DNA from: Synechococcales cyanobacterium C42_A2020_086
Lineage (GTDB): Bacteria > Cyanobacteriota > Cyanobacteriia > Elainellales > Elainellaceae
Reading direction: 5' to 3'
NCBI GenBank assembly: GCA_015272325.1
Contig: JACYLU010000029.1
Coordinates: 1-64,000 of the forward strand
Length of the DNA stretch: 64,000 bases
Shown here: positions 2 through 5,910 of the stretch, piece after piece
How positions within the stretch are numbered: position 1 is the stretch's first letter
How the letters are laid out: each line of letters opens with the position of its first letter
Program-made: the position numbers and the translations under genes
The notes under the pieces: model-generated
The model's database searches: none
What the model saw: the letters and a program-made list of their open reading frames with translations, nothing else
What the model was told of the DNA's origin: nothing

Positions 2-643
2 CTTCTGCTGTTTTCCCCGCTTCATCTACTTAATATCTCTTTGAAAACAAGCTCTAAAGTACCCTTTAGATTTGGTGAAGTACGCCAAACTGGAACCGAA
101 AAGGTAGTTATTGTGCCGAGCGTTTCATCGGAAAGTCGCGAATACTTGCCTGTAGGGTATTGCAATTCAGGAACGATTGTCAGTAACCTTGCCTTTGCCC
201 TCTACGATGCCCCGCTGTGGAACATGGCGCTGATCGCCTCGCGGCTGCACCTGGTTTGGATCGCCACCGTCTGCGGCAAACTCAAAACCGACTTTCGCTA
301 CTCCAACACCCTAGGCTGGAACACCTTCCCCGTGCCCACCCTCACCGAGCAAAACAAAGCCGACCTCACCCGCTGCGCCGAAGACATCCTGCTCGCCCGC
401 GAACACTACTTCCCCGCCACCATTGCCGAAATGTACGACCCAGCCCGCATGGATACCGAGTTTCCCCTGGTGCGCGAAGCTCATGAACGCAACGACGAAA
501 CCCTAGAGCGCATCTACATCGGGCGACGGTTCAAAAACGACACGGAACGGCTAGAGAAACTGTTTGAGATGTACGTCAAGATGACCCGTCAGCAGGGTAC
601 AAGCAAGAAGTCAGGAAAACGGAAAACCCAAGGAGGAAAGTGA
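2..643 (+). CDS. MmeI-like class I DNA methyltransferase/restriction protein, C-terminal part (5' end outside window)
   Basis: The frame is open to the left edge, so this is the 3' part of a longer gene; the first in-window start-like codon is TTG at 41. The visible stretch FGEVRQTG, PSVSSESREYLPVGY, then VCGKLKTDFRYSNTLGWNTFP is the pattern that ends the target-recognition domain of MmeI-type (type IIL/IIG) enzymes, followed by the C-terminal helical region and a Lys-rich tail. The SAM-binding and NPPY regions would lie upstream and are not seen. The family methylates adenine, and in fused members also cuts at a distance. Bases up to about 180 are AT-rich while the rest is strongly GC-rich. 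It is the first gene of a same-strand row with a toxin-antitoxin pair, a helicase and a nuclease. Confidence in the family is good; whether the full protein is active cannot be judged. Confidence 0.8.
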   Translation, partial: LLLFSPLHLLNISLKTSSKVPFRFGEVRQTGTEKVVIVPSVSSESREYLPVGYCNSGTIVSNLAFALYDAPLWNMALIASRLHLVWIATVCGKLKTDFRYSNTLGWNTFPVPTLTEQNKADLTRCAEDILLAREHYFPATIAEMYDPARMDTEFPLVREAHERNDETLERIYIGRRFKNDTERLEKLFEMYVKMTRQQGTSKKSGKRKTQGGK

Positions 644-790
644 TAGGTGCATCGCCAATACGCCCGCATCCCCCAGTCCCTGCTCCCAAGTCGGGAGAAG
701 GGGAGCCGGATTTTCAAGTCCCTTCCCAACGTGGGAGAGGAATTGAGGGTGAGGGAAAAATCAGCCAAACGTCAATCCAGCGGAGGTTAA
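640..790. repeat. Cyanobacterial intergenic repeat with two small hairpins
   Basis: Between the methyltransferase stop and the mntA ribosome-binding site lies a stretch with CTCCCAAGTCGGGAG and TTCCCAACGTGGGAG, each able to fold into a short hairpin, followed by a GAGGGTGAGGG tail. A related stretch (CCTGAGGGAGAGGGATTAAGG) occurs near 50729-50760. Such sequences are widespread between genes in cyanobacteria. A reading frame runs through it into mntA, but the translated piece is low-complexity repeat and is not part of the protein. Confidence 0.5.
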
Positions 791-792
791 TC

Positions 793-1125
793 ATGATTCA
801 AATTCAACTCAATTTGCCAATGGAGCAAATCGCTGAATTTTGTCAAAAATGGCAGGTCATAGAATTCGCGTTATTTGGTTCTGTCTTACGCGATGACTTC
901 CGCCCCGATAGTGATATTGATGTCATGGTCAAGTTTCATCCCGATGCTCACCCAAAATTCAGTACCCTCGACCAGATGGAAACAGAACTCAAAACGATTT
1001 TTCATCGCGATGTTGATCTGATTACTCGTCAAGGTATTGAATCCAGCCGGAATTACCTCCGTCGCCACGCAATTCTTTCCTCAGCCCAAGTAATTTATGC
1101 AACGGGATCTGCAATTTCTGCTTGA
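793..1125 (+). CDS. mntA: MntA-type nucleotidyltransferase antitoxin
   Basis: A 110-residue minimal nucleotidyltransferase. The signature is FGSVLRDDFRPDSDIDVMV (the GSx10DxD motif), with a later acidic residue in the DVDLI segment. I chose ATG 793 because GGAGG at 782-786 precedes it by six bases; the frame extends upstream only through a repeat. In characterised MntA/HepT pairs, MntA transfers AMP groups from ATP to a tyrosine of the HEPN toxin and so silences it. The stop overlaps the start of the HEPN gene by 29 bp, the usual coupling for this pair. The gene is more AT-rich than the helicase downstream, which suggests it arrived as a separate cassette. Confidence 0.85.
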   Translation: MIQIQLNLPMEQIAEFCQKWQVIEFALFGSVLRDDFRPDSDIDVMVKFHPDAHPKFSTLDQMETELKTIFHRDVDLITRQGIESSRNYLRRHAILSSAQVIYATGSAISA

Positions 1126-1435
1126 TATGCTGCAATCCGCAGAACTGATCATGACCTATACGACTCAATGTGAAAAGGAGCAGTTCATTAGCAATGTGCA
1201 GCTTCAAGATGCAGTGATTCGACGACTATTGGTGATTGCCGAAGCTGCAAGGCGAGTTTCAGAAACAACTCGACAAACCTTATCTAACATTTCTTGGCAA
1301 GAAATCAATGGAATGCGCAATCGCTTAGTGCATGACTATGATGATGTCAACCTCAATATCGTCTGGGAGGTGGTTCAGTCTGAGATACCGCACTTGATTG
1401 AGGAACTGAAGGCGCAGATCCCTCCTGAAAATTGA
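1097..1435 (+). CDS. hepT: HepT-type HEPN ribonuclease toxin
   Basis: A 112-residue all-helical HEPN (DUF86-like) protein. Near residues 75-82 it has RNRLVHDY, the Rx4HxY motif: Arg and His are the RNase site and the Tyr is the residue AMPylated by MntA in studied homologues. Length is typical of HepT. The start ATG at 1097 lies inside mntA in another frame, so the two are translationally coupled. The pair sits inside a defence-like row, consistent with either plasmid-style stabilisation of the locus or an abortive-infection role (inference). Downstream, 130 bp separate it from the helicase reading frame. Confidence 0.87.
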   Translation: MQRDLQFLLDMLQSAELIMTYTTQCEKEQFISNVQLQDAVIRRLLVIAEAARRVSETTRQTLSNISWQEINGMRNRLVHDYDDVNLNIVWEVVQSEIPHLIEELKAQIPPEN

Positions 1436-1536
1436 GCAACAAACACAACTACATCGGTGGTCAACAGCCGATCGCTATTTCCGTAAACCTACCATGATTT
1501 CCGCTATATCACTGGTAATCACACAATTACCGCCAC

Positions 1537-1542
1537 TATAAT
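1537..1542 (+). promoter_or_regulatory. Candidate -10 box for the helicase-nuclease pair
   Basis: An exact TATAAT lies 24 bp upstream of the probable original helicase start at 1566. No good -35 hexamer is visible 16-18 bp before it. It would give the helicase and nuclease genes their own transcript, apart from mntA/hepT. Confidence 0.35.
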
Positions 1543-1565
1543 TTCCTTGCTCTCACCCCAAAACA

Positions 1566-3704
1566 ATGGCTTCCCAATCCATGAGCAACCCGATCGCAAT
1601 TCCTTCCGTTTCCGTCACCTACGCCTAGGATGGCACCTCCACCAAAGCCAACGCTCTAGGGATGCGCCCCATGCAGGAACGCGCCTACCAAAAGCGCGGC
1701 GAACAATACCTGCTGATCAAATCACCCCCCGCCTCCGGCAAAAGTCGGGCACTGATGTTCATCGCCCTCGACAAACTGGAAAACCAGGGACTCAAACAGG
1801 CGATCATTGTGGTACCAGAAAAATCGATCGGGGCTAGCTTTCACAACGAACTCCTGAGCAAGTATGGCTTTTGGGCAGATTGGGTCGTCGAACCCTGCTG
1901 GAACCTTTGTGATGCTCCTGGCGGCGATAACGGCGGCAAAGTCGATGCGGTGAAAAAATTCCTAGAAAGCGATGCCAAAGTGCTGGTCTGCACCCATGCC
2001 ACCTTTCGCTTTGCCGTAGACAAGTTTGGGGTGGAGATGTTGGACGATCGCCTCATTGCCGTAGACGAATTCCACCATGTTTCCGCCAACCCTGATAACA
2101 AACTCGGCGACCACATTCGCCAACTCATGGCCCGCGACAAAACCCACATTGTCGCCATGACCGGTTCCTACTTTCGCGGCGATGCCGAAGCCGTGCTGCA
2201 CCCCGACGACGAAGCCCGCTTTGAAACTGTCACCTACACCTACTACGAACAACTCAACGGCTACCAATACCTGAAGCAACTGGATATTGGCTACTACTTT
2301 TATTCTGGTCGCTACAGCGACGAAATCATGCAGGTGCTTAACCCCAACGAAAAGACCATTCTGCACATTCCCAACGTCAACTCCCGCGAAAGCACTAAGG
2401 ACAAAATCCGTGAAGTCGAACACATCATCGAAGAACTGGGGGAATGGCAGGGCACCGACCCCCAAACCGGGTTTCAACGGGTCAAAACGGCTGACGGCAA
2501 GGTACTCAAAATTGCCGACCTGGTAGACGATGACCCCAGCAAGCGCGATCGCGTCGTTGCCGCCCTCAAAGACCCCGCCCAGAAAAACAACCGCGACCAT
2601 GTGGATATCATCATTGCCCTCGGTATGGCCAAGGAAGGCTTCGACTGGATCTGGTGTGAACACGCCCTCACCGTGGGCTACCGCTCCAGCCTGACGGAGA
2701 TTATCCAGATCATCGGACGCGCTACCCGCGATGCCCCCGGCAAAACCCGCGCCCGCTTCACCAACTTGATCGCTGAACCCGATGCCAGCGAGGAAGCCGT
2801 TACCGAGGCGGTGAATGATACCCTCAAGGCGATCGCCGCCAGCCTGCTGATGGAACAAGTCCTCGCCCCCCGCTTCGAGTTCAAACCCAAGCGCCCCGAT
2901 AATCAGCCCACTCCCGGCTTTGACTATGGTGAGGGCGGCTACGATCCCAATAAGTGCAACGTCGGGGTGAATCCTGAAACAGGGCAAATCCAACTGGAAA
3001 TCAAGGGACTCGCTGAACCCAAGAGTCCAGAAGCCACCCGCATCTGCCGCGAAGATTTGACTGAGCTAGTGACGGCGTTTGTGCAAGACAAGCCCTCCCT
3101 CGAACGCGGTCTCTTCGATGAGGAACTCGTCCCCGAAGAACTCACCCAAGTCCGTATGGGCAAAATCGTCAAAGAAAAATTCCCAAATTTAGACGAAGAA
3201 GATCAGGAAGCTGTCCGCCAACATGCGATCGCTGCCATCAACCTAGTGCAACAAGCCAAGCAACAGGTGAACGAAGCGACTGGAACTTACAACACCAATC
3301 CTGATGCGAGCAATCCTAGTATTACAACCCCCAGCCCCACTAGTTCCAGTGACAGCGGAACCACGAAAAATACGGCCCTTATCGACGGAGTCCGGCAGTT
3401 TGCTCTTTCCGTTACCGAGTTGGATATGGATTTGATCGATCGCATCAACCCCTTTGGCGAAGCCTACGCCATCCTCGCCAAATCCATGAGCGAAGAACGG
3501 CTTAAGCAGGTCGCAGAAGTCATTGCCGCCAAGCGGGTCAGCCTAACGGTAGAGGAAGCGCGAGAACTGGCCAAGCGGGCAAAGCGATTTAAGGAGGAGA
3601 GAGGTCGGTTGCCTTCTCTCACCGCAACCGATCCCTGGGAAAAACGCATGGCAGAAGGGGTAGCCTTCCTAACCCGCAAAGTTAAGGAGGAGCGCGATGC
3701 CTAA
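1566..3704 (+). pseudogene. DEAD/DEAH-like superfamily 2 helicase with an in-frame amber codon near its 5' end
   Basis: One frame runs from ATG 1566 to 3704, interrupted only by TAG at 1626-1628 (codon 21). The codons before it (NPIAIPSVSVTYA) and after it (DGTSTKANALGMRPMQERAY) look like one continuous protein start, so the TAG probably replaced CAG. The 680-codon stretch from ATG 1662 is intact: Walker A PPASGKSRA, motif II DEFHH, a helicase C-terminal half with IIQIIGRATRD (motif VI), then a low-complexity linker of Asn/Ser/Thr near residues 545-570 and a C-terminal helical region. The TAG removes only about 32 residues before the Q-motif-like segment. Reinitiation at 1662 could still make most of the protein, though only AGGG directly abuts that ATG. 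It overlaps the GIY-YIG gene by 8 bp. Listed as pseudogene because of the stop; it may be functional, suppressed or a read error. Confidence 0.7.
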
Positions 3705-4911
3705 ATACACCACCGATGAAGATTTAGAATTGCTCGATGAGTTGGGAGTGGACTTGGCTCCCGAACCCTCCAGCCAGCGCTCTGCTAGAGAAGAACGAAT
3801 CATTGCAGGCTTCGAGGAAATTGAGCGATTTGTAGAGGAAAAGGGCAGACTACCCCAACACGGGGATACCCATGATATTTTCGAGCGGCTTTATGCCGTG
3901 CGGCTCGATCGCCTGCGGGAATCGGAGGAATGTCGGGCTATCTTAAAACCCTTCGATTCCCGTGGACTCCTCGACGCTGAAGCAGAGAGTCTGACCTCAG
4001 CAGAGGTTTTGACCGATGAAGCATTGCTCGCCTCTCTGGGCATTGATGCCACTTCAGAAAATGACATCACTCAACTGACCCATGTGCGTAGCTTGCGCGA
4101 CAAAAGTCGTTCGCGCCGGGAAATCAGAGCGGCTGAAGAAATCGCCCAGCGCACACCCTGCAAAGACTTTGATCAATTCAAATCCATCTTTGACCAAGTG
4201 CAGCAGGATTTGCAGACCGGGGCACGGCAAACCGTCAAATATCAAGACAATGCGGTCGTCAACCCCGGCGATCTATTTATCCTTGATGGACAAAAAGTAC
4301 TCGTGGCGGAGATGGGAGAACCCTTCATCAGCGATTATGGTGTCCCTAACTGTCGCCTGCGGGTGGTGTATGACAACGGGACTGAGAGTGATTTACTGCT
4401 GCGATCGCTCCAGCGGGCATTGAACAAAGACAAAACCAGCCGCCGTATTACCAAACCTGAAACAGATTTCGGACCCCTATTTTCGCATGTTGAAGCAGAA
4501 GATGACTTGCCGACTGGCTATATTTACGTACTCAGAAGCCAATCCGATGATCCCTTCATTGCCGAGAATCGGTCAGTCATTCATAAAATCGGTGTGACAG
4601 GTGGCGATATCAAAAAACGAATTGCTAATGCTAAGCAAGACCCAACCTATCTGCTTGCAGACGTGGAAATCGTCGCAACCTTCAAACTGGCAAATATCAA
4701 TCGAAAAAAACTTGAGACAGTTCTTCACAATTTTTTTGACCATACTCGATTAGATGTCCAGTTGCAGGATCGCTTTGGCATCGCCGTAAAACCCAGAGAA
4801 TGGTTTCTGGTTCCACTAGAGGCAATTGAGGAGGCGATTGAAAAAGTTAAGGAAGGAACAATCAACCAGTTTCGATACGATCCGCAATCAGCCAGTCTGA
4901 CACGCTTGTAA
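3697..4911 (+). CDS. GIY-YIG (T5orf172/MUG113-like) nuclease
   Basis: A 404-residue protein. The C-terminal 120 residues hold a GIY-YIG fold: GYIYVL, then IHKIGVTGGDIKKRI (the YIG strand, in the KIG form usual for T5orf172), a glutamate in KKLETVLHNFF and REWF. The N-terminal part is acidic and helical, with the segment FVEEKGRLPQ at about residues 46-55, which resembles the end of the upstream helicase (FKEERGRLPS). The middle carries two segments that look like SH3-like or barrel domains (VVNPGDLFILDGQKVLVAEM). GAGG just before ATG 3697 and the 8-bp overlap with the helicase indicate tight coupling. Family members cut DNA; the target here is unknown. The pairing implies that the helicase delivers DNA to this nuclease (inference). 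Confidence 0.8.
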   Translation: MPKYTTDEDLELLDELGVDLAPEPSSQRSAREERIIAGFEEIERFVEEKGRLPQHGDTHDIFERLYAVRLDRLRESEECRAILKPFDSRGLLDAEAESLTSAEVLTDEALLASLGIDATSENDITQLTHVRSLRDKSRSRREIRAAEEIAQRTPCKDFDQFKSIFDQVQQDLQTGARQTVKYQDNAVVNPGDLFILDGQKVLVAEMGEPFISDYGVPNCRLRVVYDNGTESDLLLRSLQRALNKDKTSRRITKPETDFGPLFSHVEAEDDLPTGYIYVLRSQSDDPFIAENRSVIHKIGVTGGDIKKRIANAKQDPTYLLADVEIVATFKLANINRKKLETVLHNFFDHTRLDVQLQDRFGIAVKPREWFLVPLEAIEEAIEKVKEGTINQFRYDPQSASLTRL

Positions 4912-5037
4912 TTTCTCCAAAAGAGGAACTGTCACGAAGAAGATGATTAGAGAGCAAACGAAATGTACTTTCCAAGCGAGATAACAAATCGTTGGCGTAG
5001 CCTCTCCGCAGGAGTTAGGAGCCGACTGTTGAGAGGT
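4912..5037. other. Short intergenic stretch before the IS remnant
   Basis: No gene seen. It contains GGCGTAGCCTCTCCGCAGGAG near 4994-5014, a type of short repeat common between cyanobacterial genes. No clear terminator follows the GIY-YIG gene. Confidence 0.3.
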
Positions 5038-5039
5038 TA

Positions 5040-5910
5040 TAGCAGTCCCAAATCAGATGTGAGAATCTAGAGGGGTTACAGTGCATTTGAAAATTGCTCC
5101 ATGCTAGAGGACCTCAATACCTTCATCCACTCCAATCCCGATGCACGCGAACTGAAACGGGCTGTTGCAGTCCAGATGTTCCTGAACGGCTACAAGCACC
5201 GAGAGATCGGTGAGAGTTTAGGGGTCAATTCAGCCTTCATCAGCAAGTGGACTCAGCGCTACGAAGCATTTGGGGTGTCAGGCTTGCACCTCGCCTACCC
5301 TGGCTTGGTTGGCTATCTTACAGATGAACAACTCAAGCCATTATTGCTTGGCTGAGGAGCAAGAATTATTGGCATCTGGCGGAGTTGCAGGAGCATGTTG
5401 AGCAGGCGTATGGCGTTGTGTTTGAGTCTAAGCAGAGTTACTACAGTCTGTTCGAGCAAGCGGGGATCAGTTGGAGGAAGACCCAGAAGCGCAATCCCAA
5501 GACAGCCCTAGAGGCGGTCGAAAAAAAACAGGAAATTAGCACCTGGCTTGCAGCCCATCGAGATGAACTATGCTCTGGAGAGTTAGCGGTGTTTTTCGAA
5601 GACGAGTGCCATCTGCTATGGGGAGACCTCTGCGGCTATGTGTGGGGCAAGACTGACGAACGCATTGAGGTTCCTATCGCTAACGAGCCAAAAGATTACC
5701 TGTATTCGCTTTGCTGCCAACGACCCGAAGCAGAATCCAATATGAGGATATTTGGTTACAGGCGAAGCGGTTCATTAGGGAGTACTATCACTTGTGTACC
5801 TCGTTTGATGTGACCAAGTTCCTATTTGAGTTTGTGACTCATCGCCAAATCTTTGATTTCCCTAAGCTCTTCACTTATGGCCGCTTCTCACAACTCATTT
5901 AGAATCGCTA
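5040..5910 (+). mobile_element. IS630-family insertion sequence remnant with intact ends
   Basis: Imperfect terminal inverted repeats are visible: 5038-5065 (begins TATAGCAGTCCC) pairs with 5885-5912 read in reverse (begins TATAGCGATTCT), 22 of 28 positions matching. Both ends carry TA, the target duplicated by IS630 elements. The interior is a degraded transposase. The element could be mobilised only by a transposase supplied elsewhere. It separates the defence-like genes from the histidine kinase. Confidence 0.8.
5101..5902 (+). pseudogene. IS630-family transposase, frameshifted and internally deleted
   Basis: Four frame segments reconstruct one transposase. Segment one, 5101 to about 5345, holds the helix-turn-helix (YKHREIGESLGVNSAFISKW). 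Segment two, about 5350-5689, continues as LRSKNYWHLAELQEHVE and includes the first catalytic Asp in VFFEDECH and WGDLCGYVWGKTDERIEVP. Segment three, 5692-5741, reads KITCIRFAANDPKQNP. Segment four, 5744-5902, reads EDIWLQAKRFIREYYHLC and runs to the natural C-terminus. About 70-80 residues between PIANE and KITC, including the second catalytic Asp of the family, are missing, so the enzyme cannot be active. The first frame change could be a programmed one, as in two-ORF relatives, but the deletion and the change near 5743 are damage. Confidence 0.85.

Follow-up and report, generated by a model that had tools for sequence, protein, structure and literature searches.

The closest described relative of the locus analysed here, which opens a 64,000-nucleotide stretch of Synechococcales cyanobacterium C42_A2020_086 (contig JACYLU010000029.1, positions 1 to 64,000; this whole stretch is called the window below), is the dnmA-yeeB-yeeC cluster of Bacillus subtilis. 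In that cluster, dnmA (yeeA) encodes an MmeI homologue without an endonuclease motif, yeeB a helicase and yeeC a T5orf172 protein; in other species the helicase and T5orf172 genes most often come first and second after dnmA, and the cluster has been suggested to be a type I-like restriction-modification (R-M) system (PMC7261158, PMC9973331; these and the other papers cited here are drawn on in excerpt). DnmA of B. subtilis methylates GACGAG and alters expression, and uncharacterised proteins are scattered around the cluster (PMC9973331). MmeI carries its own N-terminal nuclease (PMC7261158). Genes of other kinds also occur within restriction operons: TgvAB lies inside a type I operon (PMC11411939), and PrrC, RhuM and DOC genes have been described in R-M operons, where such toxins are proposed to act once the first line of defence fails (PMC3710099). 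The cluster itself, and genes embedded in restriction or defence operons, are thus already known.

We consider it likely that the window holds a decayed copy of a mobile DnmA-YeeB-YeeC cluster which, when intact, would work as a type I-like restriction system, and whose junction between methyltransferase and helicase forms a payload slot, here occupied by a MntA/HepT toxin-antitoxin (TA) pair; the three-gene chassis of this copy is probably dead. The initial annotation had located a methyltransferase tail, a TA pair, a superfamily 2 (SF2) helicase and a GIY-YIG nuclease on one strand, with an 8 bp overlap of the last two, and all were found where it had placed them, on the + strand. It had matched the combination to no named system with certainty; the combination corresponds to the described dnmA-yeeB-yeeC cluster (PMC9973331, PMC7261158).

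Conservation of the methyltransferase-helicase-nuclease trio

The helicase was compared with GTDB genomes, which gave at least 581 matching stretches, and the best 80 loci were kept. Judging from the record titles, these belonged to cyanobacteria, Verrucomicrobia, proteobacteria, Bacillota and others, at 75-88% identity; as the best of at least 581 stretches, they lean towards close relatives. Together with 13 loci from the phylum they made 93 loci, 92 of them distinct. L069 was dropped because its helicase DNA is identical to that of L041, and L049 because its helicase match lacks a start. Within the phylum, the helicase was matched in 14 of 292 genomes (own genome and fragments counted). B. 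subtilis, among the control genomes, gave matches for PF20473 and PF10544.

The 3' end of an MmeI-family gene lay upstream on the same strand in 77 of the 91 distinct loci with a helicase start. In eleven of the 14 remaining loci the contig reaches just 240-3,222 bases upstream, and three (L043, L048 and L058; 3/91) lacked an MmeI end although over 8.7 kb of upstream sequence was available. L048 represents a fragment of the helicase, an MmeI occurs on another contig of the L043 genome, L058 and L063 carry an MmeI tail several kb downstream, and L079 retains the last 25 residues of MmeI at the contig edge. The helicase-nuclease junction did not exceed 60 bases in 85 of the 90 loci. An independent sample of 385 genomes, evenly drawn from a class chosen around the named relative L117, contained 17 genomes with a match; in these 17 new loci MmeI was upstream in all 17 and the helicase-nuclease junction was tight in 16. 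These results bear out the earlier proposal that methyltransferase, helicase and nuclease form one unit: the contrary case that it had named, helicase-nuclease pairs occurring mostly without a methyltransferase, was looked for and did not appear in either set.

The helicase also matched 259 plasmid records, of which 116 are predicted conjugative and 147 align to 80% or more of the helicase; a plasmid-borne homologue occurs in Synechococcus elongatus PCC 11801. It was present on 24 viral contigs as well, near-duplicates included. An MmeI end was in view in 18 of the viral contigs, and the helicase-nuclease junction was tight in 24/24.

Alignments were built from hand-picked references (68 of 75 for the nuclease, 56 of 80 for the helicase, and 12 methyltransferases). 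The helicase motifs SPPASGKS, DEFHH and MTGSY were found in 57/57 aligned sequences and IIGRATRD in 56/57; helicase homologues reach 88% identity, and the best PADLOC match of the helicase was PbeA, at 22 bits. In the T5orf172 nuclease, Y277, K297, G299, R308 and E340 were identical in 69/69 aligned sequences, our own included. A second T5orf172 domain was observed in the same genome away from the locus (L224, contig C31, 2689-2967; open frame of 468 residues).

Among 61 complete methyltransferases, mean pairwise identity was 0.37 in the recognition segment, 0.66 in the methyltransferase core and 0.79 in the tail, compared with 0.76 for the helicase. Such a hypervariable recognition segment is the pattern that selection for new recognition sites would be expected to leave. 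The idea that this segment and the cargo move as a unit was rejected, with segment identity at 0.37 in cargo-sharing pairs and 0.37 in the others.

A payload slot between methyltransferase and helicase

In the 77 loci with an upstream MmeI end, the distance from the methyltransferase stop to the helicase start fell into two states: 29 junctions were sealed (-22 to -10 bases) and 48 were filled (395 to 6,958 bases), with none between. Filled here means more than 300 bases; the threshold was 150 bases in the class sample and the viral contigs. Compared with the second junction, open in 5/90, the difference was pronounced (Fisher p about 5e-16, a value that serves only as a guide, the loci being related). 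The class sample contained 8 sealed and 9 filled slots, and the viral contigs showed seven filled junctions, three of which measured just 233-424 bases.

The borders of the slot were similar across unrelated contents. In 26 of the 29 sealed loci, the TGA of the upstream frame overlaps the helicase start codon. Among the 48 filled loci, the ATGA of the first cargo gene sits on the methyltransferase stop in 20, with starts from 9 clusters unlinked by BLASTP, and the gene before the helicase ends with the same overlap on the helicase start in 14. Cargo open reading frames (ORFs) followed the operon strand in 101 of 117 cases, or 101 of the 104 that were scanned for families, 13 minus-strand ORFs of fewer than 100 residues having been dropped beforehand.

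The 104 ORFs formed 53 BLASTP clusters. The TA pair, previously taken for a second line, is not a fixed component but one of many interchangeable cargoes. Among the Pfam families listed (25 of 27 and 25 of 31), YhcG nucleases and nucleotidyltransferase antitoxins accounted for 7 of the 104 ORFs each, HepT for 5, RhuM, Schlafen AlbA_2, Uma2 and DUF2281 for 4 each, and Fic and Bro-N for 3 each; PIN domains, HigBA, BrnT, TacA and RelE were also found. The PADLOC scan covered the 50 of 104 ORFs in alignment A2. Families that we take to be TA or defence-type were present in at least 31 of the 48 filled loci, 30 through nine clusters whose representatives were scanned individually and the 31st through BrnT; the other 17 filled loci lie outside this classification. 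A HepT gene beside a nucleotidyltransferase gene occupied the same slot at five other loci.

Three viral contigs allowed a closer comparison. The slot is nearly empty in L215 and L221, which are close to each other, and a third locus, L216, has a RhuM gene there. From the helicase start onwards the sequences are similar again, with 90-91% DNA identity on that side. This was not a clean insertion: the recognition segment could not be aligned and the methyltransferase tail was 75% identical.

Fragments of the methyltransferase 3' end were repeated inside the slot, before successive cargo genes, in L059 (1162-3614), L057 (8075-8224) and L041 (2539-2760), and also in L040 (15899-16051, minus strand, weak) and in our own genome on contig C11 (18165-19852). 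In L059, three extra methyltransferase tails accompany the gene's own end, separated by different cargo genes. Recombination at the conserved tail of the methyltransferase may be a way in which the slot grows. In L085 (2528-2767), a fragment of the helicase start (residues 1-58) is joined directly to part of a methyltransferase tail, as would be expected after tandem duplication of the slot region.

We found no description of a payload slot in the DnmA-YeeB-YeeC cluster in the open-access literature, which is weak evidence of absence because that literature alone was covered, mostly at listing level.

The copy in the window

The genome assembly comprises 38 contigs (5.9 Mb). The first base of the window is also that of its contig, C29, and all genes of the locus lie on the + strand:

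1-55, no strand: one end of a repeated element, a probable insertion sequence, interrupting the methyltransferase at the contig edge; the same 55 bases occur on contigs C36 and C32
59-643 (tail ORF 2-643), + strand: 3' fragment of a DnmA-type methyltransferase (MmeI-family, without restriction domain), with the second half of the target recognition domain (TRD) and the C-terminal domain (PF20466, PF20467)
793-1125 (ORF 640-1125; likely start ATG 793), + strand: mntA-type nucleotidyltransferase antitoxin, embedded cargo (NTP_transf_2, 3.5e-15)
1097-1435, + strand: hepT-type HEPN ribonuclease toxin, embedded cargo (HepT-like, 2.9e-25)
1566-1661, + strand: conserved 5' coding part of the helicase gene with an in-frame TAG at 1626-1628; this stretch is open in relatives
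1662-3704, + strand: YeeB-type SF2 helicase/translocase ORF, downstream of the early stop (DEAD, 5.1e-10; ResIII, 3.5e-6)
3697-4911, + strand: YeeC-type T5orf172/GIY-YIG nuclease (T5orf172, 5.5e-14)

The order expected of the cluster is thus present: an SF2 helicase gene follows the methyltransferase on the same strand, here behind cargo and interrupted by the TAG, and a T5orf172/GIY-YIG gene comes directly after it, the two ORFs overlapping by 8 bp. The contig edge with its element end, the upstream helicase start with the TAG, and a 5' part of the methyltransferase on another contig had been outside the view of the initial annotation, which likened the locus to a restriction-like system. With the element and the missing middle, a frameshift and the helicase TAG taken into account, this copy is probably non-functional.

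The methyltransferase tail matched MmeI_TRD (PF20466) over profile positions 107-207 of 207 (E 2.7e-47) and MmeI_C (PF20467; E 4.9e-14), and it was 75% identical to residues 776-965 of a complete 965-residue homologue. In a coarse comparison with this homologue, one match, on the edge of contig C26, covered the N-terminal 242 residues and another, in the window, covered residues 774-965; the part separating them was unmatched. A finer alignment placed residues 1-241, a frame change and residues 244-253 on the C26 edge, followed by 776-965 in the window. The catalytic middle (residues 254-775; 522 codons) was not found in the assembly, and the single match to the Pfam MmeI methyltransferase domain in the genome (27 bits, contig C23) lies away from this locus. 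The 5' piece on C26 contained MmeI_N and MmeI_hel only, compared with all five MmeI domains in two complete homologous methyltransferases. No intact methyltransferase was present, and the locus is a member of the cluster by descent, in decayed form. A profile of 12 homologous methyltransferases aligned to MmeI (5HR4) only from MmeI residue 104 (from 108 with a single protein), and the N-terminal restriction part of MmeI is unmatched because the alignment begins there. By this comparison the gene family appears to be an MmeI-family methyltransferase without the N-terminal restriction motif.

The first 55 bases of the window also open contig C36 and close contig C32, and beyond them all three sequences diverge. 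This element end was absent from all 116 other genomes searched with up to 3 mismatches allowed. The C26 edge bearing the methyltransferase 5' part and the window edge end in the same inverted terminal motif, AGAGCTTGTTT, as would be expected for the two ends of one insertion sequence. The triplets flanking the two element ends, read by eye from the alignment, differ on the sense strand (TTA versus TAA), which under the rule of TNA target duplication is unlike one duplicated target. One simple insertion is therefore insufficient, and a deletion between two element copies would explain the arrangement. With 522 codons missing as well, a single clean insertion into the methyltransferase was rejected.

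Two further observations concern these sequences. On C36 (L014, 45-1713), a truncated ORF adjoining the same element end has a translation that resembles an S-adenosylmethionine-dependent methyltransferase, and another nucleotidyltransferase/HepT-like pair lies further on. Window positions 664-699, between the methyltransferase tail and mntA, resemble part of an in-frame insertion inside the L037 methyltransferase at about 5844-5880 (58% over 12 residues, E 0.023), and a small repeat element inserting in frame may be involved.

The helicase coding sequence starts upstream of the listed ORF, at ATG 1566 or 1581, the latter being the apparent start in several cyanobacterial relatives. The TAG replaces one codon of a conserved N-terminal stretch. 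In all 92 readable loci of the 93, the stretch before the conserved methionine is open for at least 18 codons and carries a recognisable version of VSVTYAxxGxSTKxNALGM (typical form). The listed ORF opens at this conserved methionine, behind the TAG. The nuclease shows no visible lesion, and the key GIY-YIG residues are among its invariant positions.

The MntA/HepT pair appears intact. A GSx10DxD-type motif, which we take to be that of nucleotidyltransferase antitoxins, was read in the MntA translation. The HepT translation contains RNRLVH (Rx4H), within the Rx4-6H motif named in PMC3710099. A nucleotidyltransferase gene followed by a HEPN gene with Rx4-6H is the arrangement of a MntA/HepT module, and the two translations point to one here.

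Two more eroded copies were observed in the same genome, L012 on C11 and L013 on C37, each made of methyltransferase tail pieces, cargo and a helicase scrap. Named from translations, the C11 cargo is a MntA/HepT-like pair and the C37 cargo a Uma2-like ORF with a TA-like pair beside it. In both, the cargo is better preserved than the chassis, which suggests that TA cargo can outlive the surrounding restriction genes.

On the 3' side, a 58-base stretch at window positions 4943-5000 has a second copy on C15 and a partial copy on C11, and two ORFs with transposase-type helix-turn-helix domains follow (5101-5355 and 5385-5813), presumably IS630-like. The right border of the locus, too, looks like mobile-element debris.

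Proposed mechanism and alternative explanations

In intact copies, the TRD of the MmeI-family protein would recognise an asymmetric site at which one adenine is methylated, the helicase would act as a translocase on unmarked DNA, and the GIY-YIG protein would cut unmodified DNA. With these roles split over three proteins, marking and cutting would be divided in a type I-like manner. The translocation and cutting steps are deduced from the gene families. The methyltransferase-helicase junction would serve as the payload slot for unrelated genes, many of them TA or defence-type, mostly in the same direction and often joined by stop/start overlaps, and the payload may act when restriction, the first line, fails. 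In this genome, the methyltransferase split by a repeated element, its missing middle and the early helicase stop would leave a dead chassis; this copy has probably lost its function, judging from lesions in the assembly, and we infer that MntA/HepT was retained by addiction.

We propose more tentatively, and with less than even confidence, that the trio serves as a general chassis in which a single slot is dedicated to payload, and that the translationally coupled, unrelated toxins in this slot deliver a second strike if restriction fails. The slot would then amount to a natural catalogue of backup weapons, including many uncharacterised ones. Because the cargo is rich in TA and defence-type genes, the slot could be mined for new ones. 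The locus in the window adds little by itself; the comparison showing where the cluster accepts cargo is more useful.

Several points weigh against the reading as a decayed restriction cluster with a payload slot. For the B. subtilis locus, neither a restriction nor a phage phenotype was observed according to the excerpts of PMC9973331. The likeness to YeeB and YeeC is one of family, order and strand, these two proteins having been compared by description only. Sequence searches turned up no solved helicase relative and no convincing solved relative of the nuclease. The predicted nuclease model (mean predicted local distance difference test score, pLDDT, 84; predicted template modelling score 0.42) gave no PDB match at E <= 0.001; its top structural matches, eIF5A-like proteins at a query template modelling score of 0.12, are given no weight. 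The predicted helicase model has a mean pLDDT of 60. The C26 and C29 pieces probably belong to one gene, because they share the element and only one long piece of each kind exists. The middle piece of about 1.6 kb may sit in a short contig that the assembly does not include, its smallest contig having 4,400 bases. The early stop at 1626 could be a sequencing error, and a restart at ATG 1662 could yield a near-complete helicase minus its conserved N-terminus because Walker A lies further on, 20 residues past that ATG.

Among the alternatives, the one that survives best, improbable as we judge it, takes up an argument made for B. subtilis: the cluster would be a relic whose one important part is the methyltransferase, serving as an orphan regulator of expression. 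The expression effect of DnmA there agrees with this, as does the unchanged susceptibility to three tested phages after single deletions of yeeB or yeeC (PMC9973331). However, deletions of dnmA and yeeB in Vibrio crassostreae raised sensitivity to some phages, as cited in PMC9973331. Moreover, the helicase and nuclease are kept across phyla in the same order with invariant key residues, the recognition segment diversifies, and the most damaged gene in this genome is the methyltransferase itself.

Slightly less probable still is an intact, working locus whose breaks are assembly or sequencing artefacts (a collapsed edge repeat, a miscalled base at 1626 and a missing short contig). The three separate lesions, namely the element in the methyltransferase, the frameshift after residue 241 and the helicase TAG, argue against this, together with the unequal flanking triplets and the two more eroded copies in the same genome, even though the contig ends in a multi-copy repeat, a typical break point of short-read assemblies, a 1.6 kb piece could have been dropped from an assembly whose smallest contig is 4.4 kb, and the helicase motifs and nuclease residues are conserved.

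It is very unlikely that helicase and GIY-YIG nuclease form a stand-alone two-gene defence with the methyltransferase as an incidental neighbour. Their junction is the tightest of the cluster, including all 24 viral contigs, but only 3 of 91 loci had ample upstream sequence and no MmeI end, one being the fragment L048 and the others (L043, L058) having MmeI elsewhere. A chance meeting of unrelated genes in a decaying mobile region, suggested by the mobile-element debris on both sides, the patchy helicase (14/292 phylum genomes) and the decayed copies, can be set aside almost entirely, being already refuted for the trio by the same order in other phyla with helicases 75-88% identical, and opposed by the HepT and nucleotidyltransferase pair in the same slot at five other loci.

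Comparison with known systems

The locus, read here as a probable decayed restriction cluster, can be placed against several kinds of system. DISARM and BREX were rejected: as the initial annotation had held, their components differ, and in the five proteins scanned the only PADLOC matches to either system were weak ones to DrmMI, on the methyltransferase tail (best 37 bits, where type IIG reached 206). Type IIL MmeI (5HR4) is homologous in its methyltransferase, target recognition and C-terminal domains, but its N-terminal nuclease part is unmatched here and separate helicase and GIY-YIG genes follow. A type IIG/IIL enzyme, with nuclease and methyltransferase in one polypeptide, was likewise rejected, given the unmatched nuclease part and a 5' piece holding MmeI_N and MmeI_hel alone.

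The MntA/HepT module has the same genes, order, overlap and HEPN toxin motif as ours, which is an ordinary pair in an unusual position. The DnmA-YeeB-YeeC cluster of B. subtilis shares the three families, their order and strand, and is horizontally acquired with TA genes adjoining. There, yeeB and yeeC lie immediately downstream of dnmA and the TA genes outside the group (PMC9973331, PMC7261158, in excerpt), whereas in the window the TA pair lies inside the cluster, between methyltransferase and helicase, and both of these genes are interrupted. Defence genes embedded in restriction operons are also independent toxin or defence genes between restriction genes, and share the RhuM and Fic/DOC families with the cargo found here; the host operon differs, however, and the slot described here is confined to one fixed junction, which is either sealed or filled.

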